Source: Bacillota bacterium
GTDB taxonomy: Bacteria > Bacillota > Limnochordia > DTU080
Assembly: GCA_012840225.1 (NCBI GenBank)
Contig: DULU01000005.1
Coordinates: 1-64,000 of the forward strand
Length of the DNA: 64,000 nucleotides
Direction: 5' to 3'
How positions within the stretch are numbered: position 1 is the stretch's first letter; each line of letters opens with the position of its first letter. The notes beneath the pieces were generated by a model. It saw only the letters and a list, made by a program, of their open reading frames with translations. It was not told where the DNA came from and ran no database searches. Positions 35,207-47,090 of this stretch are shown here, one piece after another. A program made the position numbers and the translations under genes.

Positions 35207-35277
35207 GAAGCTGAAGATGTGACGGCTGACCACCGCCACTCATACCATGGTACTAATCATTTATTGGAGGAGTGGCG

Positions 35278-36045
35278 ATGAGGAATAAAACCAGGAAATT
35301 GGCAAATGGAAACGGAGATAGGCAAAGAGATGGGGATAAACACCGGGACGGGGATAAGCGCAGGGACGGCGATAAGCACCGGGACGGCGATAAGCACCGG
35401 GACGGGAAAAGACAACGCCATGGCGAGCGGACCAGGACCCGACTGATGCTTATGAACCAATTCCGGCTGCTTTGGGAACAGCATGTCTATTGGACGAGGA
35501 TGGTTATCCTCGGTATAGCCTTCGATACACCGGATCTGGAGGCCACTACAGAACGGTTGCTGCGCAATGTGCCGGATTTCGAGGCTACTCTCAGCCAGTT
35601 TTATAGCGCGGAAGAAGTCGAAACATTCGGGAGATTGCTGAGAGATCACCTAGTGATTGCCGCCGAGCTGGTTACCGCAGCCAAGGCGGGCGATAATGCC
35701 GCCGTGGCGGAAACCACAGAGAGATGGTACGCCAACGCCGACGAAATTGTGGCACAGATGAACCGGATGAATCCATTCTGGACTATCGAGGAGCAAAGGT
35801 CGATGTGGCAGCGTCATCTTGATCTGACCATCGAGGAGGCTGTGGCTACCTTGTCGGGCGATTATGCCCGCAGCATAGCAACCTTCGACGCCATAGAGGA
35901 ACAGGCGCTGATGATGGCCGACAGCTTCACCAGGGGAATAATCAGGCAGTTCGACCTGGATACCGGTACATCGGCAGCGAAAGGAACAAAAGGAAGGGGA
36001 AAAAGAACAACACGGAGGAGAACAAGAACGAGAACAAGGACATGA
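35278..36045 (+). CDS. Helical hypothetical protein with basic repeat tails
   Basis: A 255-residue protein; ATG 35278 is seven bases after GGAGG. The N-terminus is a run of RDGDKH-type hexapeptides and the C-terminus a run of Arg/Thr dipeptides, both from DNA repeats. The central part (about residues 58-225; LLWEQHVYWTRMVILGIAF, FYSAEEVETFGRLLRDHLVIAAELV, RWYANADEIVAQM) resembles a helical-bundle family of Bacillota, sometimes mislabelled acetylglutamate kinase. No kinase motif is present and no function is known. It precedes the ATP-grasp gene on the same strand. Confidence 0.7.
   Translation: MRNKTRKLANGNGDRQRDGDKHRDGDKRRDGDKHRDGDKHRDGKRQRHGERTRTRLMLMNQFRLLWEQHVYWTRMVILGIAFDTPDLEATTERLLRNVPDFEATLSQFYSAEEVETFGRLLRDHLVIAAELVTAAKAGDNAAVAETTERWYANADEIVAQMNRMNPFWTIEEQRSMWQRHLDLTIEEAVATLSGDYARSIATFDAIEEQALMMADSFTRGIIRQFDLDTGTSAAKGTKGRGKRTTRRRTRTRTRT
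35326..35406 (+). repeat. 18-bp tandem repeats in the 5' coding region
   Basis: About four units of GGGACGGCGATAAGCACC with minor changes encode RDGDKH repeats in frame. Confidence 0.9.
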
Positions 36046-36129: not shown

Positions 36130-37362
36130 GTAGCAATTCGAGTCCTGATCGTATATAACACCCCGCCTGCCGGAATAGATTATGCTGAATGCCACAGAGG
36201 TGTAATCGATGCAGTACGCCATGTCTCTCTCGCCTTGACCGAGCTTGGCTATAGCAGCTCATCAATGGGCATCGGGGCCGACCTGGGTCGTGAACTGAAG
36301 ATCCTGGCCGACACCTCTGTTGATGTAATTTTCAACTTGTGCGAAAGCTTATGCGGCGAAAGCAGGTTGCAGCCATGCTTTGCCGGGTATTTGGAGCTTT
36401 TAGGTATACCATTCACCGGGGCGCCGGCTGAGGCGATTACTTTAGCAATCGACAAGCTAAAGACCAAAGCTCTTCTTTCTGCGGCGGGGATTCCTACCCC
36501 GGAGTACTACCACGTCGACCAGATTCTGCCGGAGGGAGCCGGGGCGGACGAGGAGGAGGCTGGGGAGGCTGGGGAGGCTGGGATTGTTGCCGGGGAGGCT
36601 GGGGTGGCTGCCGGAGAAGCCGGTGCGGCTGCCGGTACTGGGGCAACTCCGAGGTCGGAGAGGACCGAAGCCGAACTACCACCCCCCTCCTCCTTCCCAC
36701 TGATCGTCAAACCGGCCCAGGAAGACGGCAGCATCGGAATCGAACAAAGCAGCGTGGCGGAGAACCGCTCGCAGCTCATTTCTCTTCTCAAGAAATCCAC
36801 TGGTCGCTTCGGCCGGCACATTCTGGTGGAGAGATATATAGCCGGGCGGGAAATATCCGTCGGCTTGCTTGGAAATGACTGCATCGAAGTCCTACCCTTG
36901 GTAGAAGCGACTTTCGCTGCTCAGCCTGCCGGATACCGCCCCATCATTACCTACCAGGTCAAATGGGAGCCGGAATCCGGTGAGCATCAAAGATTCCGGC
37001 GCATATGTCCGGCGCCACTGGCACCTGATTTAGCGAAATATATAGAGGTGATCTGCCGAAAGGCGTATCAATTGATCGGCTTGAGTGGTTACGGCCGTAT
37101 CGATATTAGATTGGAGACTGATACCTCACGTCCATACATTATAGATGTAAACGCCAATCCGGATCTCACCGGATACGGTTATGGTTCCTCCCTGGACAAC
37201 TCCGCTACATTACCTCTAGCTGCTCAGGTGGCTGGAATCACCTACCCGGAGCTTATTGACCGCATCATAAAATGTGCTCTGCTGCGGAGGACCAAAAGTG
37301 CCATGCCGTGGGGTGCGGAAAGTGCTCTACAGCAAAGTGCTGCCTCAACCGCCCAAGCATAA
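36130..37362 (+). CDS. D-Ala-D-Ala ligase-like ATP-grasp protein without a standard start codon
   Basis: The coding sense begins at codon GTA 36130 (AIRVLIVYNTPPAGIDY follows), preceded by GGAG five bases away. The first in-frame standard start codons are far inside (TTG 36235 removes the first beta-alpha unit). An in-frame TAA lies at 36106. The body matches ATP-grasp ligases of the Ddl type: VIFNLCESLCGESRLQPC, LELLGIPFTGAPAEA, LIVKPAQEDGSIGIEQ, ILVERYIAGREISVGLLGN, YGRIDIRLETDTSRPYIIDVNANPDL. A 45-residue Ala/Glu/Gly repeat insert splits the middle domain. Either a GTG start has mutated to GTA, or a base is missing near ATG 36119, or ATT 36136 is used. A peptidoglycan role is possible but not shown. 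Confidence 0.72.
   Translation, partial: VAIRVLIVYNTPPAGIDYAECHRGVIDAVRHVSLALTELGYSSSSMGIGADLGRELKILADTSVDVIFNLCESLCGESRLQPCFAGYLELLGIPFTGAPAEAITLAIDKLKTKALLSAAGIPTPEYYHVDQILPEGAGADEEEAGEAGEAGIVAGEAGVAAGEAGAAAGTGATPRSERTEAELPPPSSFPLIVKPAQEDGSIGIEQSSVAENRSQLISLLKKSTGRFGRHILVERYIAGREISVGLLGNDCIEVLPLVEATFAAQPAGYRPIITYQVKWEPESGEHQRFRRICPAPLAPDLAKYIEVICRKAYQLIGLSGYGRIDIRLETDTSRPYIIDVNANPDLTGYGYGSSLDNSATLPLAAQVAGITYPELIDRIIKCALLRRTKSAMPWGAESALQQSAASTAQA
36549..36640 (+). repeat. GAGGCTGGG-type nonamer repeats in the ATP-grasp gene
   Basis: Imperfect nonamers (GAGGCTGGG, GAAGCCGGT, GGGGTGGCT) encode EAG/VAAGEAG repeats in frame between conserved segments of the ligase. Confidence 0.85.
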
Positions 37363-37395: not shown

Positions 37396-39699
37396 CTATT
37401 TACTCATGCTATGTCCAAAAGCTCCAATGACTGAACTGGTTGTGGTATAAGTTGACGGTCCGGCCAAAGAGCCGAAAACACCTGAGACTCCGCCGGATCC
37501 ACCGTAACTAACGGGCCCGATTCCCGAGCTAACGCCAAATTCAGCTTTATCAGTCCAACCTACAAAATCTCCTTTTTGGTTAAAGCGGAAGGTAAGCCCG
37601 CCTTTAGCCGACAACTCCGCCTTTGCGAAACCAGCTCCGGCAGAAGCTTTAACCCCCACCAATATGCTGATTTCCGACTCGCCGGTTTTAAAGTTTTGCT
37701 TATATGATCCTCCTACCCCCAAAAGCGCCTCCAACTCCCAACTGTCGCAATCCACAGCCATGGATGCGATACCGAGGCTAAAAGTCATTTTGCCCTTAAG
37801 CCCACAAGTACTGGCTTTTTTCTTCGGCACTTCCATCTCATCGATGGACTGCGCACTCCCGTGGTCGATTTGTTCGTCCGGGGTAACTATAGGAGCAACA
37901 TAGTCGGCAGTAGCGTAAGCAGCAGGAAGAGTGATCAAATCCGCGGCCAGAGGTAAATAACTCGAATAAACTGTTAGCTCCCGGATCTGATTGACGTAGT
38001 CCATTACATCCTGATCATATATGCCGGCTGTAACCTGATCCGACATCCTCCAGTATTCTTGGAGGAGTTTTTCCAAACGGCCATATGTCTCTAGTGTTAG
38101 GTCCCGCCAGGCATAGAAATGGGTATCGGCAATTTGCCCGGCTTGCTTGTTAATAACCTTACCTATTTCCTTCGCTGCAGGTATTTCACCGGCCATGATC
38201 AGCTTTTCCAGCTGCTTCATTTGACCGCCTTCTTTTAGGTTGGTCATCTCCTGGGCAAATCGATCCTCAATCTGTTTCCGCCGCTCGCCCATTTTTGTCA
38301 ATTCATTCGCAATCATTTCCGCATAATAATCATTCACCAGTTCCAGCATAAAGAGCTTTTCCTGGTAGGCGGACTTGATCACCGTCATACCCGGTATGTC
38401 GGAATCACCCCAGTCGTCATCGTTCCAGTCTCCATAGTCCCAACCGTCGTCTTCCCAGGCATCGTAATCATCCCAGGAGTCCTCGCCCTCCCAGGAATCG
38501 TCGCCCCAGTCGTCATACCAATCATCATCCCAGTCGTCATCCCAGTCATCGTCCCAGTCGTCATCCCAGTCATCGTCCCAGTCGCCTTCCGAGGAAGGGT
38601 CTCCGAACATGTCACCACTCGTACTTTCAGCTAATACATCAGAGTGATATGTAAAAGCAAAGGTTAAAGAGCCAAGGAGTCCTTTATCCATAACCTGGCT
38701 TGCAAAACGTTGATAGGTGGGTGCTGAAGCTATGAACGCCATGCGATCGTTCCAACGAGGCAGAGAGGGTAGTCGTAAAATGTCACCTTGTGGGCTTGGT
38801 TGATCATCATCAACTTGGTCATGATCAGGCGATGAGCTATCTTCTTGATTATCAACAATATCTTCTATAATAACGTCTATAAACCGGCCTACCGAACCGC
38901 CGGCAGTCTTCACTCCCATATAAACTTGACGCATGGAGGGGAAATACCCTCCCCGGGCTGCTTTCAGCAACTCTTCCATAGCCATATCGGGCATGCCACG
39001 ATTAAGCCATATGAGGCTCAGGCCATAATGAGCTGCATCGAAGTCGGGATCATATGCAAGGGCTTTGTTATATGCCAACTCCGCCTCCACATGCAGGCCT
39101 TTGTCAAGATATGTATTGCCCAGATTGGTTAAAATCAGCGGTGAAAATGGAGCCAGCTCATCAGCGTAAAGTAATACCTCGATGGCTTCATCATATCGTC
39201 CATGAGCTCGTAGGGCAGTCGCTAAATTGTTAACCACCAGAGGGTTTTCAGGAGCCGCTTTTACGGCTAGCAAAGCAAGGGCTACACCCAAATATTTGGA
39301 AGAGGCGGTAGCCTCGATGATCACTCCAGCCGATGAAACTTCAGCGGCTATGTCCATTACCTCTGCCACGCCTTTGCTTAGCCTGGCTTTCTGGTCGTTA
39401 ACGTAACTGTGTTCATCCTGATCTAGTTTGCTTACATAATCTTCATAGAGGCTGTCGACCAGAGCGAGAAAGCCTTCCTGCGTTGGCACCTGAAACTGCC
39501 CCTGCGCCTGCACCTGCCCCTGCGTTTGCACCTGCCCCTGCGCCTGCACCTGCCCCTGCGCCTGCACCTGCTCCTGCGCCTGCACATGCACCTGCACCTG
39601 CACTTCAGATGCCTGTATACCGGATATAAAAAGGCTGCTCATTGCCCAAAGAAAAGCAATCACACCAGCAATTATTTTCTCACTCATTTTCCTTCTCAT
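37396..39699 (-). CDS. Exported TPR protein with Asp/Trp repeat tract
   Basis: A 767-residue protein; ATG 39699 has GGGGG nine bases upstream and opens a signal peptide (IIAGVIAFLWAMSSLFISGIQA). Then come a Gln/Val repeat (QVQAQG units, about residues 33-75), TPR-like helices (VVNNLATALRAHGRYDEAIEVLLYAD and LILTNLGNTYLDKGLHVEAELAYNKALAYDPD, about 150-240), and an acidic tract of WDDD units (about 372-440). A helical stretch (EMIANELTKMGERRKQIEDRFAQEM) follows. A Gly/Ser-rich C-terminal region (SAGAGFAKAELSAKGGLTFRF) looks beta-rich. No family is recognised for the whole. It is likely secreted or surface-bound. The acidic tract could bind cations. Confidence 0.72.
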   Translation of the reverse strand: MRRKMSEKIIAGVIAFLWAMSSLFISGIQASEVQVQVHVQAQEQVQAQGQVQAQGQVQTQGQVQAQGQFQVPTQEGFLALVDSLYEDYVSKLDQDEHSYVNDQKARLSKGVAEVMDIAAEVSSAGVIIEATASSKYLGVALALLAVKAAPENPLVVNNLATALRAHGRYDEAIEVLLYADELAPFSPLILTNLGNTYLDKGLHVEAELAYNKALAYDPDFDAAHYGLSLIWLNRGMPDMAMEELLKAARGGYFPSMRQVYMGVKTAGGSVGRFIDVIIEDIVDNQEDSSSPDHDQVDDDQPSPQGDILRLPSLPRWNDRMAFIASAPTYQRFASQVMDKGLLGSLTFAFTYHSDVLAESTSGDMFGDPSSEGDWDDDWDDDWDDDWDDDWDDDWYDDWGDDSWEGEDSWDDYDAWEDDGWDYGDWNDDDWGDSDIPGMTVIKSAYQEKLFMLELVNDYYAEMIANELTKMGERRKQIEDRFAQEMTNLKEGGQMKQLEKLIMAGEIPAAKEIGKVINKQAGQIADTHFYAWRDLTLETYGRLEKLLQEYWRMSDQVTAGIYDQDVMDYVNQIRELTVYSSYLPLAADLITLPAAYATADYVAPIVTPDEQIDHGSAQSIDEMEVPKKKASTCGLKGKMTFSLGIASMAVDCDSWELEALLGVGGSYKQNFKTGESEISILVGVKASAGAGFAKAELSAKGGLTFRFNQKGDFVGWTDKAEFGVSSGIGPVSYGGSGGVSGVFGSLAGPSTYTTTSSVIGAFGHSMSK
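38401..38590 (-). repeat. 12-bp tandem repeats encoding WDDD units
   Basis: The unit GACTGGGATGAC (minus strand) alternates GAC/GAT codons. It is near-perfect at 38506-38586 and decays over 38401-38505. It encodes an Asp/Trp tract of about 60 residues. Confidence 0.92.
39490..39606 (-). repeat. 18-bp Gln/Val-coding tandem repeats
   Basis: Units such as CAGGGGCAGGTGCAGGCG (minus strand) encode QGQVQA repeats just after the signal peptide of the TPR protein. Confidence 0.9.
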
Positions 39700-39937
39700 G
39701 TCGATAAACCCCCATTGCAGGTTAATTGCGGCTAACTGCCCCTTAACTGTCCGCCGGCACATATATTTCGACGCTCATTGGCAATATTAACAGACACTTG
39801 ACAAGGAATATTTATCCAGCAGGCGAGTATTTCATCAGCGATTCTATTTGTCCTTCTTTTCCGCTTTTGTGGTGGCGGGAAGAAGAAGGAGCGAGAGGGG
39901 AGGAGGGAGGTGGGTGGAGGGGCCCAGACTGCTCGCC

Positions 39938-40095
39938 GCAGTTCTGCTGGATTTTGCCGTTTTTTTTCCACCGCCTATGCCACCCCAGCCGGCCAGCCAG
40001 AGACCTAATTCTTGCTCGCCAAGCAGTACACTGCATCTCTTGTCCAGCTATATGATGCCGTTGGTTGGTGGAAAATTACTACCAAATCCGCAGGG
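39938..40095. repeat. Hairpin-prone repeat, copy A
   Basis: The 5' box TTTTGCCGTTTTTTTTCCACC and 3' box GGTGGAAAATTACTACCAAA bracket about 110 bases. TTTTCCACC and GGTGGAAAA are exact inverted repeats. The element ends in ATCCGCAGGG. It lies in the gene-free stretch 39700-40909, which otherwise holds pyrimidine-rich simple sequence. Confidence 0.65.
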
Positions 40096-40188
40096 TCTGC
40101 CCTAATCATCCACTCCCTCCTCGCTCCCGCTCGCCCTCCCTCTTGCCCACCGACTCGCCTGCCAACCCGGCATCCCCTCTTTCCTCGC

Positions 40189-40325
40189 TGCAGTTTTGCC
40201 GCTTTTTTTCCGCCCCCTGAACCTCACCTACCTGCCTGCCAGAGGTTATAGAGCTCATCACCTGTATTGCCTTTGCAGCTATCTGCTGCAGAAAAACAGG
40301 GAAAAAACCTACCAAATCCGCAGAG
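40189..40325. repeat. Hairpin-prone repeat, copy B
   Basis: The 5' box TTTTGCCGCTTTTTTTCC and 3' box GGGAAAAAACCTACCAAA share the family layout. It ends in ATCCGCAGAG. The inner TGCAGCTATCTGCTGCAGAAAA is nearly shared with copy C. Confidence 0.7.
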
Positions 40326-40499
40326 CCGAAGCCTCCACCTCCTCTCCCGCCCGCCGGCTGCGAAGCCGCCTGGTGCTCCGATTACGCAGCCGGCAGCAGA
40401 CTCGAACCGCAAGGAGCAGCCGGAAAACCTGGGTGGATAGCAGATGCAATGAAGCGAAGTAGGCGGCGGAAGGGAATGCCGCTATGCATCCCTCCTGCC

Positions 40500-40641
40500 G
40501 GCTGCTGTTTTGCCGATTTTTTCTATTGCCTAAACCATACCTACCGGCCTGCTAAAGGCCTTAGCGCATATCAACTGCAATATTTCTGCAGCTAACTGCT
40601 GCAGAAAAACCATGGTAAAAATCTACCAAAACTGCAGATGG
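40500..40641. repeat. Hairpin-prone repeat, copy C
   Basis: The 5' box TTTTGCCGATTTTTT and 3' box GGTAAAAATCTACCAAAACT share the layout of copies A and B. The inner part includes CTGCAGCTAACTGCTGCAG and a CGGCCTGCTAAAGGCC stem. Confidence 0.7.
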
Positions 40642-40909
40642 CTCAGCCTCCCCTGCTTTCATCGCCCTCCTACACCTCACTGCGCTCACTCCGCCCCCTC
40701 CCTGCCTACACCCCCCTCCCCACCTCCCCCTCACCTCACCCCTGCCTTTCGGCATATTTTCCTTCTCGCTACGCCCATTCTCCATTTCCGCGATCCATGG
40801 CTTGGCGACTGCATGGTAAACTGAAAATATATTGTCAGAATTATAATGCAGATTACATCACGTCTGCAATTACATCACGTTATAAATTAAATGGGGGTAT
40901 GTCGATTAC

Positions 40910-41950
40910 ATGCTGATGAACGAGGTTCATTTGGTGCAGGTTCCTGTTACGTTTCTGATCGATCCCCGGTTGCGGCCGACGGCACAACTGCTGTGGCTGG
41001 CTCTGTGGATCAGCGGTCCCAGCGCAGGAATTGCTCTCGACCAACTCCTCTCACCCACCCGGCTATCCAAGATTACCGGCCTTTCCTGCCCCACCGTCCG
41101 CAAAGGTATAGCCCAACTTATCGAACATAGATGGCTGATATGGCCGGTAATAGACAGCAGAATTTTTCCGAGCGGTATATTCGAGCACTGTAGAATCGTC
41201 TATTTACCCAGCGATCTGATTACAGACCATAAAGTAAGCCCCCAGGCCAAGATGCTTTATGGCTACCTGCAGTACCTACCCAATTATGTCTATTGGAAAC
41301 GGGAAGGTCGGACAACCTACCAGGCGCTTAGCCAGATACTCAGCATAAATGTGAAAACTGTCCGCCAGGCGATGTATATGCTCCGAAGCAACGGCTGGAT
41401 AAAAACCGTACAAGCCAATCAAAAGGCGGAGATAAAATATACCCTCACGCACCCAGTCGTGACCCACTACGAAACCTTATGGCGTCATGTTGATAAAGCC
41501 GAATTCAGAGGTGAAACCCTCATGAAGGAGTGGCTTTCCGTCCTGATTGATTCCGCCGAATATGTCGACAACGGCTACTTCGGCTTTCTAATCAATCCGG
41601 AAACCAATGAGCAACTGCAGCTGGACCGTTATTATATGAACTTTAAAGTAGCGTTTGAATTTAATGGCGACCAGCACTACAAATCATCAGCCCTGTTCGA
41701 TAAAGAGACCGTAGCCAAACAAATGCGGCGCGACCGTATCAAAAAGGAGATCTGCAAACACATGGGCATCACGCTGGTAATCATTCACTGGAATGATTTG
41801 CACAACATCGGCGCACTGTTACAAAACTTGCCGAACAAATTGCCGCTGCGAGACCTGAGCCAATATGAGTCGCACCTCGCCTTTCTGCAATCCGAGACCA
41901 GCAAATATCAAGAATCTACAATAATAAATATAAACAGAACCAGAAACTGA
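40910..41950 (+). CDS. Double winged-helix protein with C-terminal restriction-fold nuclease domain
   Basis: A 346-residue protein. The first winged helix is at about residues 15-80 (LSKITGLSCPTVRKGIAQLIEHRWL). A second is at about 100-170 (SPQAKMLYGYLQYL, YQALSQILSINVKTVRQAMYMLRSNGWI). The C-terminal domain (about 205-320) has LINPETNEQLQLDRYYMNF, VAFEFNGDQHY, KQMRRDRIKKEICKHMGITLVIIHW. This is the D...E-x-x-QHY...RRD pattern of PD-(D/E)XK/EDxHD-type nucleases found in homing enzymes. Two winged helices also recall replication initiators. A five-codon reading frame (40899-40916) overlaps the start, and ATG 40916 is an alternative. A paralogue follows at 42181. Base composition is more AT-rich than the surroundings. 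Confidence 0.75.
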   Translation: MLMNEVHLVQVPVTFLIDPRLRPTAQLLWLALWISGPSAGIALDQLLSPTRLSKITGLSCPTVRKGIAQLIEHRWLIWPVIDSRIFPSGIFEHCRIVYLPSDLITDHKVSPQAKMLYGYLQYLPNYVYWKREGRTTYQALSQILSINVKTVRQAMYMLRSNGWIKTVQANQKAEIKYTLTHPVVTHYETLWRHVDKAEFRGETLMKEWLSVLIDSAEYVDNGYFGFLINPETNEQLQLDRYYMNFKVAFEFNGDQHYKSSALFDKETVAKQMRRDRIKKEICKHMGITLVIIHWNDLHNIGALLQNLPNKLPLRDLSQYESHLAFLQSETSKYQESTIININRTRN

Positions 41951-41999
41951 AATAGCAAATCTGCAAGCCATGATAGTAACCGCCACGGCTTCAACGCCA

Positions 42000-42056
42000 G
42001 GAATAGCAGTGCCGGGAATAGCAGTGCCGGAAATAGCAGTGCCGGAAATAGCCCCT
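42000..42056 (+). repeat. 15-bp tandem repeats between the nuclease paralogues
   Basis: GGAATAGCAGTGCCG and variants occur three to four times in the 230-base gap between the paired genes. Confidence 0.85.
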
Positions 42057-42145
42057 CCATATAAATCATGCGAGCTAACTAGCCATAATTTATTTTAAGG
42101 TTATTTCACAATTAATAGTTTACATCAGGAGGAATAAGGCCAACC

Positions 42146-42172
42146 ATGTCCAACGAGTTTCCAACGAGGTGA
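42146..42172 (+). CDS. Possible leader peptide of eight codons
   Basis: ATG 42146 follows AGGAGG and encodes MSNEFPTR. Its stop lies within GAGGTGA, the ribosome-binding site of the next gene (ATG 42181). The layout suggests translational coupling or a regulatory leader, but the frame is very short. Confidence 0.3.
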   Translation: MSNEFPTR

Positions 42173-42180
42173 CTGTTGCT

Positions 42181-43209
42181 ATGCTATTTTTTGATGCCGA
42201 GGCGCCAATCTCCGTACTGGTTTCTCAAGAATTATCACCGGCGGCCAAAGTGATGTTGGTCTGCCTTTATGCTGATAAAGAGGATGCTGAAATATATGCT
42301 GACGATACTATATATACTCCGGCCTGTTTAGCACTGCGCACCGGATTATCCAGGCCTACCGTCAATGCTGCTCTTCAGGAATTAGAGGATAAGGGATGGT
42401 ATATTTCACCTTTTTCAGATGAAGGTGGTACTATAGCTATTCGTCCATTGCCGCACCCTCAGATTACCTTACCCGGGGCGCTGCTAGCCGAAAAAGAAGT
42501 GAATGCTCTGGGTAAAGTGGTCTATGGGTTAATTCAAACACACCCCGATTTCAAGCACCCAAGCGGCATTTTTAGTTATTACACTCTCGGCAAACAGCTA
42601 AAGGTAAGTACCAGAAAACTGGAGACAGCCTTCTCGCAATTAGTCCAGACCGGTTGGTTAAAAATAGATGACGCAAGCAATATGGATAAAGTGCAATTCA
42701 CCTTATGCAGACCACGTGTCTTTCCTGATTTCAATACATTGGACATGGTAAAAAGAGGCCTGAAAGTGCAGGGAGTTAATGGCAAGAACTTGATGCATTA
42801 TTACTTATCAATCATCGTCGATTACGATGAAGGTCTGCTTAATGCGCAGCTCAACTTCCTACTAAATCCGTTCACTGATGAATTGATGAGGTATGATATC
42901 TATTACAGCAAATTTGCCGTGGCCATCGATTGCGCCGAGCCTACGGAATGCATAGGTACCTCTCCCTACACTCCCCTCATTTCCATAGAAGAGGCTGAAC
43001 GGGCTATGAAGGCCACTATCAGCAAAATTAAAGGGATTAGCTATATAGAAATAACACTCGACGACCTCTGCTACGAAAAAATGTTGGAAAAAGTGCGCGG
43101 TCACCTGCCTCTGCGTGAAGATGTCACCAAGTATAAACCATCCCTTAATTATCTGGACAAAAAAAGCCGGTCATATGCCAAATCAATGGCCTACCTGATG
43201 AGAAAATGA
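42181..43209 (+). CDS. Paralogue of the winged-helix/nuclease protein with decayed nuclease site
   Basis: A 342-residue protein aligned end to end with the 40910 gene product. It has two winged helices (LALRTGLSRPTVNAALQELEDKGW; YTLGKQLKVSTRKLETAFSQLVQTGWL) and the C-terminal domain with LLNPFTDELMRYDIYYSKF. Where the partner has AFEFNGDQHY, this copy has AIDCAEPTEC, and the RRD segment is lost, so nuclease activity is probably gone. ATG 42181 lies eight bases after GAGGTGA; GTG 42169 is less likely. It ends with LPLREDVTKYKPSLNYL, matching LPLRDLSQYESHLAFL of the partner. The pair may be active and regulatory subunits or an ageing duplicate. Confidence 0.75.
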   Translation: MLFFDAEAPISVLVSQELSPAAKVMLVCLYADKEDAEIYADDTIYTPACLALRTGLSRPTVNAALQELEDKGWYISPFSDEGGTIAIRPLPHPQITLPGALLAEKEVNALGKVVYGLIQTHPDFKHPSGIFSYYTLGKQLKVSTRKLETAFSQLVQTGWLKIDDASNMDKVQFTLCRPRVFPDFNTLDMVKRGLKVQGVNGKNLMHYYLSIIVDYDEGLLNAQLNFLLNPFTDELMRYDIYYSKFAVAIDCAEPTECIGTSPYTPLISIEEAERAMKATISKIKGISYIEITLDDLCYEKMLEKVRGHLPLREDVTKYKPSLNYLDKKSRSYAKSMAYLMRK

Positions 43210-43485
43210 GAGATTTGAGCTGGGCAAGGCCAAGGACAGGAGCAGGGAAAGGGACAGGAGCAGGAGCAGGGACAAGAGCAGGGCCCGGGGACAGGTGCAA
43301 ATACCGAAACCATTAATTAATCCAGAGGCCGGGCTCAGGTTGGAGCCCTGAGCCCTGAACTCAGAATCCAGAACCCTGAGCCCGGAAATCATAGCTGTAG
43401 CTGTAGCTGGCACTTACACTGTAGCCGTTGATAGAGATGTGGAGATGGAAATGGATATAGTCTGATACCTCCAGTCTTGCACAGA

Positions 43486-44259
43486 CTATTTCTTCCAATA
43501 GCCGTTCCTCTTCAGCAACCCTCTAGCTTCAGTTAGATGCATATTTCGTTGCAAGACCGCCAGTTCCAGACAACCACGCCCCGAAAACCCGGCGGTTTCC
43601 AGGATTTTACAGATTTCCACGAGCGGCATGGCAGCCAGCGGTGTCGTCGGCCCACCTTTGATATGTAGTTGGGCAATGAGCGGCGCACATATTTGCGCCT
43701 GTTCCACAGGATCTTCCCCGACATAGTAGCAATTGCCCATATCAAAATAGATACGGAAAGCCGGGTGTCCAATTGCCTTCACCAACTCGGCCAACAGATA
43801 TGGCTTATACCCGCCCACATGCTCCAAAGCCAGGGTAATGCCTGCTGACGCAGCTTCATCGGCTACCGCAGTAAGTTCCCGGCGGTAGATGGCCGCTAAT
43901 TCCGGGATAGGCGCAGTGAGCTGCTCCCTGGTGGCCAATAGAATCGCATCGGCCCCTATTTCTTTTGTCAGCCTCACCATCGCCGTGACGTCAGCAACCA
44001 ATTTTTGCTGCTCAGCCGGTGTCTTGGCCGCAAAATCGGTAAAATGCCCCATACTGGTCTGCAGAATAGGCAAGCCCGTCTTTCCGACTAATTCCTTATA
44101 ATATGCGCCGACCTCAACTGCCGACCGTTCCAACTCTTCACGAGGTACGACCAGCTCCAGAAAGTCATAATCCAACTCTTTCAGCACTTGCATCTTCTCT
44201 TCGAGTGTTTCCACTACTCCTACGCAATTGTCACGTACCCCAATTTGCATTATTATCAT
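43486..44259 (-). CDS. Sugar phosphate isomerase/epimerase-like TIM barrel
   Basis: A 257-residue protein of the xylose-isomerase-like/AP-endonuclease-2 TIM-barrel superfamily. Metal-site residues appear in order: Glu in ITLALEHVGGYK, Asp in IYFDMGNCYY, His in IAQLHIKGG and the final Glu in GRGCLELAV. Such enzymes isomerise or epimerise sugars and cyclitols. The start may be ATG 44259 or the second ATG at 44250 (GAGGG upstream favours 44250 in spacing). It stands alone within the repeat-rich island. The 276 bases between it and 43209 hold GACAGGAGCAGGG-type simple repeats and CCCTGAGCCC repeats, with no gene. Confidence 0.82.
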   Translation of the reverse strand: MIIMQIGVRDNCVGVVETLEEKMQVLKELDYDFLELVVPREELERSAVEVGAYYKELVGKTGLPILQTSMGHFTDFAAKTPAEQQKLVADVTAMVRLTKEIGADAILLATREQLTAPIPELAAIYRRELTAVADEAASAGITLALEHVGGYKPYLLAELVKAIGHPAFRIYFDMGNCYYVGEDPVEQAQICAPLIAQLHIKGGPTTPLAAMPLVEICKILETAGFSGRGCLELAVLQRNMHLTEARGLLKRNGYWKK

Positions 44260-44574
44260 TACCCTCTTTCTTTAGGCATCGTCCGTTCGTTCATTCAGTC
44301 AATCAATACAATGCGCCTCGCCTGAACTTTTTCTCCTTTTGCATACCAAACCCCTTTAGATAGCAATAAACGAATATTAAGCGGTAGTATGGCGATGGCA
44401 ATGAGGATGGGATGGCAAAGGGAAAGGCGAAGCCGGAGGCCGATGGCGAAAAGCATAGGGTAGGGTGATATGTATGCCACAAGACGGGAAGTTGCTGAGG
44501 GAAAATAGCTGCTGAGGGAAAACAGCTGAGATTTTCCTCCATTTTGCGCTGCAGAGAACCTCTCCATTACCACC

Positions 44575-44642
44575 TCACCACCTCCATCACCACCTCCATC
44601 ACCACCTCCATCCCAACTCCATCCCAACTCCATCCCAACTCC
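44575..44642. repeat. CACCTCCAT and CCCAACTCCAT simple repeats
   Basis: The gene-free stretch 44260-45383 contains CACCACCTCCAT three times and CCCAACTCCAT three times, then the 207-bp direct repeat and copies D and E of the hairpin family. Confidence 0.8.
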
Positions 44643-44740
44643 CATTGCACTATCACCCCTGTGCCACTTCAGTCCTACTATGGTCGCAGTTTCTCAATTA
44701 TGGCACACACAGTAGCAACGGCATTGATGGTAAGAATGTG

Positions 44741-44947
44741 GCGTGAGCGGACAGGGGGTAGTGTACTGTACGCCCGGCATTCTGCCGGTAACCACTATGC
44801 ATATGGATGTTTTGCCGCTTTTTTACCACAGACCCTTCCCCAGCTCAAGCCGGCGATTGGGCATGGCCTGGAAAAGTCATGACTGATCGCCCAGCTCATG
44901 GCGATTGGCAGAGGAGGGGTTGACGGTGGCAAAATCTTACCAAAACC
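44741..44947. repeat. 207-bp direct repeat, first copy (contains hairpin-prone repeat D)
   Basis: It begins GCGTGAGCGGACAGGGGG and matches 45009-45215 at a constant offset of 268 bases with scattered substitutions. It contains GTACGCCCGGCATTCTGCCGG, then the family boxes TTTTGCCGCTTTTTTACCA (44810) and GGTGGCAAAATCTTACCAAA. Confidence 0.9.
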
Positions 44948-45008
44948 CCTGGGTACTCGATACCATATGCGCCCACCGCTCACTGCTCCCTTTTTCCACC
45001 ATCGACAG

Positions 45009-45215
45009 GCGTGAGCGGACAGGGGGTGGTGTACTGTACGCCCGGCATTCTGCCGGTAACCACTAAGCATATGGATGTTTTGCCGTTTTTTTACCACAGA
45101 CCCTTCCCCAGCTCAAGCCGGCATTTCGGCATGGCCTGGAATAGGTATGGCTGATCGCCCAGCTCATGGCGATTGGCAGAGGAGGGGTTGCCGGTGGCAA
45201 AAACTTACCAAAACC
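45009..45215. repeat. 207-bp direct repeat, second copy (contains hairpin-prone repeat E)
   Basis: Same layout as the first copy, 61 bases downstream of its end. The boxes are TTTTGCCGTTTTTTTACCA and GGTGGCAAAAACTTACCAAA. There are no insertions or deletions relative to the first copy. Confidence 0.9.
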
Positions 45216-45383
45216 GGAGGGGAGCTCCTCTCCCCTCTTCAACCTGTTCCCGCTTTCTGCGGCAACCGATTGACGCAACAGGTGGCTGCGTACGACGGAG
45301 GCAACGGAGACGGAGATAGTGGTGAGATTTGGCAGGGATAGAGGAGGGATAGCAGCAGGATAGTGTTGGAATAGTGGCTACAG

Positions 45384-47090
45384 CTATTGCTGCACATTCA
45401 GGCGCAGGCGTTTGTAGGCGTTAATCAGGCCGTTTGTGCTGCTATCGTGGCCGGTAGCCATTTCATCACTTTTTAGCTCGGGCAATATTTTATTCGCCAA
45501 CTGTTTACCCAACTCCACTCCCATCTGGTCGAAGCTATTTACGTTCCAAATAGCTCCTTGCACAAAAATCTTGTGCTCGTAGAGGGCTATCAGCTTACCG
45601 AGGGTTTCAGGATCTAACCGCCGGTATAAAAATGTATTGGTAGGTTTATTGCCGGCAAACGTTTTGGCTGAGACATAAGCCGGGTCGGCGGCACGAGGAT
45701 CACCGGCTGCCTCCAGCTCCGCCTTGGTTTCAGCAAAGGTCCGCCCCTTCATTAGGGCTTCGGTTTGCGCCAGGCAGTTGGCGATAAGTATCTGATGGTG
45801 GTCGCCGATTGGGTTATGGCTTTCGGCAGCAGCCAGAAAATCGCAAGGAATCAGTTTAGTGCCCTGATGAATCAACTGATAAAAAGCATGCTGGCCGTTG
45901 GTTCCCGGTTGTCCCCATACGACCGGTCCGGTTTGGTAATTCACCAGGTTTCCATTTTTGTCGACGCTCTTGCCATTGCTTTCCATATCGGCTTGCTGCA
46001 TGTAATCGGCAAAGTAAGTTAGATACTGATCATATGCCAATATGGCGTGGCTTGCCGCTCCCCAGAAGTTGTTGTACCAAATGCCCAGCAGAGCCATGAT
46101 CACGGGGATGTTTTTATCCAGCTCAGCGGTGCGGAAATGCCTATCCACCATATGCGCCCCGGTGAGCAAGGCCTCAAAATTATCCATCCCTATATATAGA
46201 GCTATCGACAGACCGATGGCCGACCACAAAGAATAGCGGCCGCCTACCCAATCCCAGAACACAAACATGTTCTCCGGATTAATGCCAAACTCCTGAACAG
46301 CCTGCCGATTGGTGGATATAGCCACAAAATGCTTGGCCACGGCAGATTGATCAGGAACATGGCTCAAAAGCCAACTGCGAGCCGAACGAGCGTTGGTCAT
46401 CGTCTCCTGGGTGGTAAAAGTTTTCGACGAAATTAGGAACAGGGTTCTATCCGGCGGCAGGTGCTTCAAGGTTTCTGCCAGGTCGGTAGGGTCAACATTG
46501 GAGACAAAGTGGACCCGCAAGGGCTGCCCGTCGGCGGTTTGGCGGTATGCATAGGGTTGCAAGGCATATGTAACCATCCTCGGCCCCAGGTGCGACCCAC
46601 CGATGCCGATATTGACCACGTCGGAAATGGTTTTTCCGCTATATCCCTTCCAGGCCCCACTGTGAACCATATGGCAAAACCGGCGCATCTTTTCCAATTC
46701 CGCATTTACATGCGGCATCACATCCCGGCCATCCACGAGGTATGGATCATTGGAGCGGTTGCGCAAAGCCACATGCAAGACCGGCCGGTTTTCGGTGTTA
46801 TTAATACGTTCACCTCTGAACATAGCTTCTATTTTCTCAGGCAGCCCGGTCTCGATTGCCAGCTTAAGAAGCAGTTTCATAGTCTCGCTGGTAATGCGGT
46901 TTTTGGAGTAATCGAAAAGCAGGCCATCCCAAAATATAGAAAAACGGGAAAAACGTTCGGGATCGGACGAAAAAAGGTCCCGCATGTGCACGCCGTTTAT
47001 ATCCTGTTGATGCTTAATCAGCTTCTGCCAAGCAGGAAGTGAGGTGACATTTGAGGTAATGGCGGTAGTGGTAGTGGTAGTTGTGGACAA
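45384..47090 (-). CDS. pgi: Glucose-6-phosphate isomerase
   Basis: A 568-residue isomerase interconverting glucose 6-phosphate and fructose 6-phosphate. Signature segments: [70 protein letters not shown] and the C-terminal [21 protein letters not shown] 47090 (AGAGGAG seven bases upstream) is preferred. GTG 47135 would overlap the preceding gene by 29 bases. After the start comes a run of seven Thr from a repeated ACC/ACT tract. It resembles the long, proteobacterial/eukaryotic-type Pgi rather than the short Bacillus type, which suggests transfer. It lies directly downstream of the GH140-like gene. Confidence 0.93.

Follow-up and report, generated by a model that had tools for sequence, protein, structure and literature searches.

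Rep-like nuclease genes linked to repeat arrays in Limnochordia-like Bacillota: a candidate family of chromosomal site-specific nucleases

We describe here a real and probably undescribed family of Rep-like nucleases whose genes are linked to arrays of repeats. Two of its members lie in the window, by which we mean the whole stretch of DNA that was analyzed (64,000 nucleotides from a member of the Bacillota). The explanation that we favor, and to which as a whole we assign a probability of roughly 0.5, is that these nucleases are chromosomal, site-specific and directed at repeat elements of their own. The unit of the family is a single gene with its repeat array, rather than a pair of genes such as the one in the window.

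The first gene of this pair, P0001 (40910..41950, + strand), encodes a protein of 346 aa with predicted tandem winged helices (wH) of the Rep-initiator fold followed by a Vsr/EDxHD-type nuclease with an intact catalytic motif. The second, P0002 (42169..43209, + strand, 346 aa), is a paralogue that keeps the tandem wH and the nuclease fold and has lost catalytic residues. An earlier note on this DNA had pointed to two neighboring reading frames of like length in AT-richer DNA, and this description holds: both frames are complete at these coordinates, and the GC content is 0.44-0.48 at 41-43 kb as compared to ~0.55 for most of the window. The two proteins are homologous, with 28% identity and E=7.7e-31 in a search of their own genome. 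The catalytic motif of P0001 reads D239...E250-F-N-G-x-Q-H...D275-x-x-K278 (+ strand codons: D239 at 41624, E250-H256 at 41657-41677, D275 at 41732 and K278 at 41741), whereas P0002 keeps D239 and K278 alone, the E, N, G, Q, H and D being gone. The contrast to which the note had drawn attention, between a D...EFNGxQH motif in P0001 and the segment AIDCAEPTEC (42922..42951, + strand) that takes the place of the conserved (A)FEFNGxQHY in P0002, is therefore genuine. Its proposal that the active and inactive proteins work together as a system can be discarded, as no second locus with such a pair occurs among the loci seen; one family member is present per locus everywhere but in the window, and P0002 alone has lost its active site among the examined loci whose sequence spans the motif region. 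Because every other examined locus has a single member, and because the motif is never lost where it is covered, P0002 is either a duplicate of local origin that has decayed or a regulator that binds the sites.

Two TTACATNATGTAA-like palindromes (40853..40882, + strand), which begin 57 and 40 bp ahead of the P0001 start codon, form a probable operator. Paired palindromes of the same kind precede the start codons of five paralogues in the same genome (C51, C42, C31, C74 and C5), and they are likely to be autoregulatory operators, distinct from the elements of the arrays. A 15-bp tandem repeat (GCCGGAAATAGCAGT) lies at 41996-42052, in the gap between the two genes. Long low-complexity tandem expansions are found in the neighboring proteins encoded at 37396-39762 (-), 36235-37362 (+) and 35272-36045 (+), with motifs such as QVQAQGQVQ, DDWDDDWDDDW, GEAGVAAGEAG and DGDKHRDGDK, and Q/P-rich inserts separate wH1 from wH2 in the family members C5, C74 and C51 of the same genome.

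The two winged helices and the restriction-like domain read from the translations in the earlier note were borne out by AlphaFold models of P0001 (pLDDT 90.9) and P0002 (pLDDT 88.4) and by fold comparison. Residues 2-188 of P0001 align with RepE54 structures, often in complex with iterons, at Z 7.9-9.2 over ~160-178 residues; its second winged helix (residues 96-183; 41195..41458, + strand) matches the RepA_N initiators 4pql/4pt7/5kbj at Z 8.5-9.6; its nuclease domain (residues 197-313; 41498..41848, + strand) gives Z 8.4 with Vsr 1cw0 (106 residues, 2.8 A) and Z 8.0 with 3r3p, the EDxHD homing endonuclease I-Bth0305I (94/97 residues); and P0002 matches RepE54 (Z 9.5, 169 aa, 4.3 A), the pi-iteron complex 2nra (Z 8.4) and, by its nuclease domain, 3r3p (Z 8.6), all with an aligner whose best background Z is typically 7-8, so that scores of 8-9.6 exceed background slightly and each row is weak when taken singly. 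The many initiator entries obtained for both paralogues nevertheless point the same way as profile searches of the Pfam/PHROGs type, which matched HTH_36 and "replication initiation protein" and, for the nuclease, the homing endonuclease profile phrog_9084 (E=9e-11), with DUF2726 (E=0.0013) under its cut-off. The tandem winged-helix initiator fold is present, at Z 7.8-9.5 to RepE54/pi over ~160-178 residues and ~10% identity; given these middling scores and low identity, the resemblance to plasmid initiators appears to be one of common fold rather than of proven kinship. A profile of wH1 also matches wH2, which suggests an internal duplication, and many family members have the second winged helix alone. 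Its fold match and its conserved D239, E250, H256, D275 and K278 place the C-terminal domain in the Vsr/EDxHD branch of restriction-fold proteins rather than among the classical PD-(D/E)xK enzymes. MOB_C relaxases consist of a wHTH and a restriction fold; the proteins gave no match to a Pfam relaxase family up to E=1, and no transfer genes were noted in the neighborhoods read by eye. No HUH/Y1 transposase domain appeared in Pfam/NCBIfam/PHROGs profile searches.

The gene pair is flanked on both sides by one repeat family, as the note had observed, in the form of five copies of one element, all in the same orientation, with arms TTTTGCCGNTTTTTT and an A-rich TACCAAA. E1 (39952..40093, left arm TTTTGCCGTTTTTTTTCCACC, right arm GGTGGAAAATTACTACCAAATCCGCAG), E2 (40188..40323) and E3 (40502..40637) precede P0001, and E4 (44806..44953, core CGCCCAGCTCATGGCG) and E5 (45074..45221) lie past the gene that comes after P0002 and form a 268-bp tandem unit; all five are given on the + strand. 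The TTTTGCCGNTTTTTT arms start at 39952, 40194, 40508, 44810 and 45078, and each is paired with a partner arm that ends ~130-142 bp downstream. Nowhere else in the 64-kb window is there a repeat pair of more than 70 bp. A curated structured RNA family was considered and rejected, as Rfam had no match at the repeats; its one match in window 39500-45500 was at chance level and far under its cut-off, and on eleven loci nothing reached the gathering score apart from a tRNA.

The genome from which the window derives (3.55 Mb, 154 contigs) has ~11 family members on different contigs, in neighborhoods that vary from copy to copy and consist, as judged by eye, of housekeeping-like genes. Members were also found, often several at a time, in 11 of 59 related genomes besides this one, with ~11 as the highest copy number per genome. 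A single-sequence scan of genome contigs gave no close homologues, but an alignment-based scan did find members, at ~57 more loci that overlap in part with those of the 59 related genomes and that are nearly all from Limnochordia-like Bacillota MAGs; they include Fermentithermobacillaceae (among them the complete chromosome CP062796), Limnochordaceae, Symbiobacteriaceae and MAGs labelled Thermaerobacter. For relatives from phages and viral contigs, the match is chiefly to the nuclease domain. D239, D275 and K278 are conserved in 98-100% of the family; the conservation of EFNGxQH is biased for the loci of the alignment-based scan, since EFNGxQH served there as the search pattern, and it also holds for members from the whole-protein search. 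Across 12 gene pairs, both paralogues and orthologues, dN/dS is 0.04-0.38, which denotes purifying selection. A second member near 1.997 Mb of CP062796, a Fermentithermobacillus chromosome, is split across two frames and is apparently a frameshifted copy, and in four Lokiarchaeota MAG proteins (L131, L133, L134 and L142) the EFNGxQH nuclease motif region occurs in otherwise different proteins.

The linkage between gene and repeats recurs in related genomes, a check that the earlier note had itself proposed. When copies were counted as 14-mers with at most 2 mismatches in 800-bp windows, at least five copies were present within 1.5 kb of the gene at 19 of 69 loci and beyond 3 kb at 1 of 58 (paired Wilcoxon p=1.3e-5 for near versus far copy number over 57 loci), a contrast that is an upper estimate because the far windows consist largely of coding sequence and the loci are not independent of one another; several loci have no clear array. 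These results, together with the predicted folds, support the notion in the earlier note of nucleases with a DNA-binding part and a restriction-type fold that are linked to repeats. Self-comparison of loci places noncoding repeats with a period of 145-330 bp beside family genes, and elsewhere in the class the arrays consist of short iterons that recur every 31-64 bp, such as AGTGCAAACCnnGTTnGCACT (L105/L107), CTGGTCnCCACnGACCAG (L118) and GTGTCGGTnnnACCGACAC (L128). The array at L113 is 1.3 kb long, with 18-bp units that recur every 33 bp; its repeats are degenerate and its spacers recur inside the array, as compared to the near-identical repeats and unique spacers, accompanied by cas genes, of a CRISPR array. 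CP062796 carries one array next to the gene and another, small one at a distance of 26 kb. Since many family genes and arrays are located at contig ends, the arrays probably break assemblies. The repeats at L055 5215-5780 were rejected as elements, their translations being those of paralogous (microcompartment-like) protein genes. Immediately upstream of the family gene in a genome of the same family (G002 contig C69; L069 1023-2400) is a 600-bp repeat pair with 75% identity.

The elements of the source genome have a common anatomy, in which two inverted arms flank a conserved AGCTGGGCTTTT core at a fixed spacing. In nine elements of the C42 type, from six contigs, both 20-bp arms and the central (T)CAGCTGGGCTTTT core are conserved, and the linkers vary at a spacing that is constant to ~1 bp and free of large gaps. 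The AGCTGGGCTTTT core recurs in elements of this genome whose arms differ widely, as well as in G002 (L069), L085, L089 and L090 and, in a weaker form, in L070/L071. A core matrix trained on the home clade found 21 matches near the gene and 15 far from it in other genera (141 versus 268 kb, p=0.003), and its reversed form, used as a control, was likewise enriched near the gene (11 versus 10), so that core enrichment beyond the home clade is no more than suggestive. As the arms vary with the DNA-binding part of the protein and the core is constant like the nuclease, these patterns suggest that the core may be the place where the nuclease acts.

Paralogues and element types go together. C42, C31 and C18, whose proteins are 64-79% identical where measured, have one element type in common (GTGGCAAAAAAGTGGC arms), C51, C5 and C74 have a second, C111 and C29 a third, and P0001 has its own; close paralogues with a common element type occupy different neighborhoods. 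One MAG has four gene+array units (L076-L079) whose genes are 75-89% identical at the DNA level. For the orthologues L105 and L107, identity is 81-90% in the flanks and just 67-71% in the arrays, so that array turnover is rapid. Site symmetry, moreover, tracks the number of winged helices: at 12 two-wH loci the arms, of 20-25 bp, are asymmetric (internal palindrome score at most 3.5), and at 17 one-wH loci the sites are mostly palindromic (Mann-Whitney p=0.0005, or 0.0014 without near duplicates, for representative iterons picked by eye and with L113, L116, L117 and L128, two-wH by length, reassigned to the one-wH class on the grounds that the wH profile detected no more than one domain in each). 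A relationship of this kind would be expected if the wH domains recognized the sites directly.

Elements also occur away from the gene. At C91, two intergenic 231-bp units of the C42 type have no family gene within the surrounding 8 kb, and elements of the window type are present at C139 and C147 with no family gene in the stretches read. A search of the source genome with the C42-type pattern gave 19 matches versus 2 for the reversed control, and one with the window-type pattern gave 22 versus 11, a background on account of which only the perfect and paired window-type matches (C139 and C147) were counted; BLAST of the window elements against this genome was too insensitive, and pattern search did better. 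Matches at contig ends (C10, C14, C36, C55, C27 and the C42-type copies that end C139) were left out as gene-free loci, since a gene might lie past the contig break.

The occurrence of gene+array units in different neighborhoods of one genome implies that they get copied within it. The two partial genes of C12 and C29 match at 95% identity along a stretch of 525 bp that begins ~100 bp before the ORF, and lie in surroundings that differ. Synteny indicates that two ortholog pairs, L070/L071 and L105/L107, were inherited vertically, and L070/L071 was dropped as proof of mobility for this reason. As regards homing, what was observed amounts to dispersed gene+array units in one genome and to gene-free elements, with no insertion boundary or empty site among the loci examined and with two syntenic ortholog pairs; movement of the units, if any, would be occasional. 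In the region syntenic between L070 (G028:C6) and L071 (G016:C20), extra insertions, one of ~10 kb and one of ~6 kb, adjoin the gene in G016; they contain genes that look, by eye, like those for RAMP/Cmr proteins and ABC-transporter fragments.

In the explanation that we propose, for which DNA binding, cutting, the position of the cut and mobility are all things that we infer, the winged-helix part, with the fold of iteron-binding plasmid initiators, would bind the arms or iterons adjoining the gene. A pair of protomers, bound to inverted arms, would then position their Vsr/EDxHD domains over the AGCTGGGCTTTT core and nick or cut it, and repair of the break could lead to tandem duplication of elements and to occasional copying of gene and array to other sites. 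The unit would persist as a selfish element of the homing or REP-like kind, able to move its own sites in trans, and P0002, as a decayed copy that still binds sites, might serve as a regulator or competitor. That the protein recognizes the elements is likely, and that its nuclease acts on them is plausible, slightly more so than that it does not. Selfish spread, rather than a function for the host or in defense, is our best single guess, ahead of Odn-like defense, and is held at less than even odds. More tentatively still, we may be dealing with a new kind of self-contained bacterial chromosomal element in which a re-used initiator fold tethers a nuclease of the homing type to an iteron array of its own, amplifying both its sites and itself within the genome, and in which the number of winged helices sets the symmetry of the site. 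Against the explanation stand the failure to find an insertion boundary or empty site, the synteny of two ortholog pairs, the loci with no clear array and the consideration that cutting a resident array of one's own would be costly unless regulated.

Several other accounts of the family deserve to be weighed. An origin-directed chromosomal defense, in which a Rep-type domain would steer the nuclease to the iteron origins of plasmids, phages or satellites and the arrays would be decoys, sequestration sites or regulatory sites, has the domain logic of Odn on its side (RepA_N-like domain and homing-type nuclease, PLE origins, iterons; PMC8263062), as well as the patchy distribution and the many divergent paralogues per genome. 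We consider it unlikely, since Odn has no described array of its own, PADLOC gave weak wH matches and nothing more, the neighborhoods are by eye housekeeping-like and not defense islands, and no viral contig had cognate pairs for four element types, in a search by exact patterns only and hence an insensitive one. A relic or dormant replicon is a second alternative, in which the protein would be the initiator, the array an origin left by integrated plasmids and the nuclease a means of nicking it. The RepE/pi/RepA_N fold and the iteron-like arrays would both be at home there, but ~11 dispersed chromosomal copies are needless for a single initiator, a full-length relative was absent from the plasmid collection searched, and plasmid, phage or conjugation genes were not recognized by eye beside the copies examined, so that such an origin is improbable.

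To about the same degree we doubt a domesticated chromosome-organizing or gene-regulatory system that would bind clustered palindromes in the manner of centromere-binding wH proteins, with the nuclease mainly structural or engaged in rare processing. Vertical inheritance of two ortholog pairs under purifying selection, the retention of the DNA-binding fold in P0002 despite its dead active site, and the appearance of the plasmid centromere-binding protein AspA among weak fold matches all accord with it; elsewhere in the family, however, the catalytic residues hardly vary at all, an argument for the importance of cutting, and copy number and positions differ between genomes. Least probable is coincidence, i.e., a modification-dependent (type IV) restriction enzyme or a stand-alone regulator that happens to lie among ordinary intergenic repeats. 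Low-complexity tandem repeats are indeed frequent in the source genome, and N6-methyladenine-sensing endonucleases with a fused wH are on record (PMC11037411), but Vsr, DUF559 and iterons are all absent from that paper, and linkage in many genera, element types common to paralogues and a symmetry that tracks wH number are not expected by chance.

If site-specific action on a resident array is indeed what these proteins do, the DNA recognition of plasmid initiators would be joined to a homing-type nuclease outside the phages, as a resident chromosomal unit with its own target adjoining it. The family would also offer, as material for deriving a recognition code, a natural series of paralogous protein-site pairs, with a different iteron for each protein and with one or two winged helices for palindromic or asymmetric sites, and it would be a candidate cause of the long tandem repeats and assembly breaks in these genomes. 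The earlier note knew of no described system with this layout, and the combination of Rep-like wH, nuclease and array was likewise not found in a text search of the literature, most subscription journals lying outside its reach.

The closest analogues of the family are Odn of phage ICP1 and the REP/RAYT systems. Known plasmid Rep proteins, in which the note saw a possible refutation of its reading, account for one half of the protein: the DNA-binding part has the initiator fold, and no known Rep with this nuclease was found. The likeness to RepE/pi-type (1rep, 7rva, 2nra) and RepA_N (4pt7, 5kbj) initiators lies in the two-wH fold and in iteron-like arrays that adjoin the gene, and the present arm length of ~20-23 bp suits a tandem-wH protomer; the present family differs in its added nuclease domain, its lack of a plasmid context and an identity of only ~10%. 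With I-Bth0305I and Vsr it has in common the fold of the C-terminal domain and a conserved acidic/His motif, whereas the DNA-binding part, the chromosomal context and the linked arrays are different. In Odn, a RepA_N-like, replication-initiator-type DNA-binding domain is fused to a homing-type nuclease that cuts the origins of the satellite PLE and requires their semi-palindromic iterons (PMC8263062). Odn, however, is phage-borne, has a T5orf172 nuclease and cuts the origin of a satellite, whereas the present family is chromosomal and multi-copy, with a Vsr/EDxHD-like nuclease and a putative target array beside the gene. REP/RAYT (TnpA-REP) systems resemble it in having a nuclease gene with cognate palindromes, element types specific to paralogues and solitary elements (PMC8266576, PMC3686654). 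RAYT is an HUH transposase, whereas in the present family no HUH domain was found and the nuclease matches Vsr/EDxHD, and its elements, as compared to REP sequences, are ~90-150 bp long or form short-iteron arrays and are few per genome.
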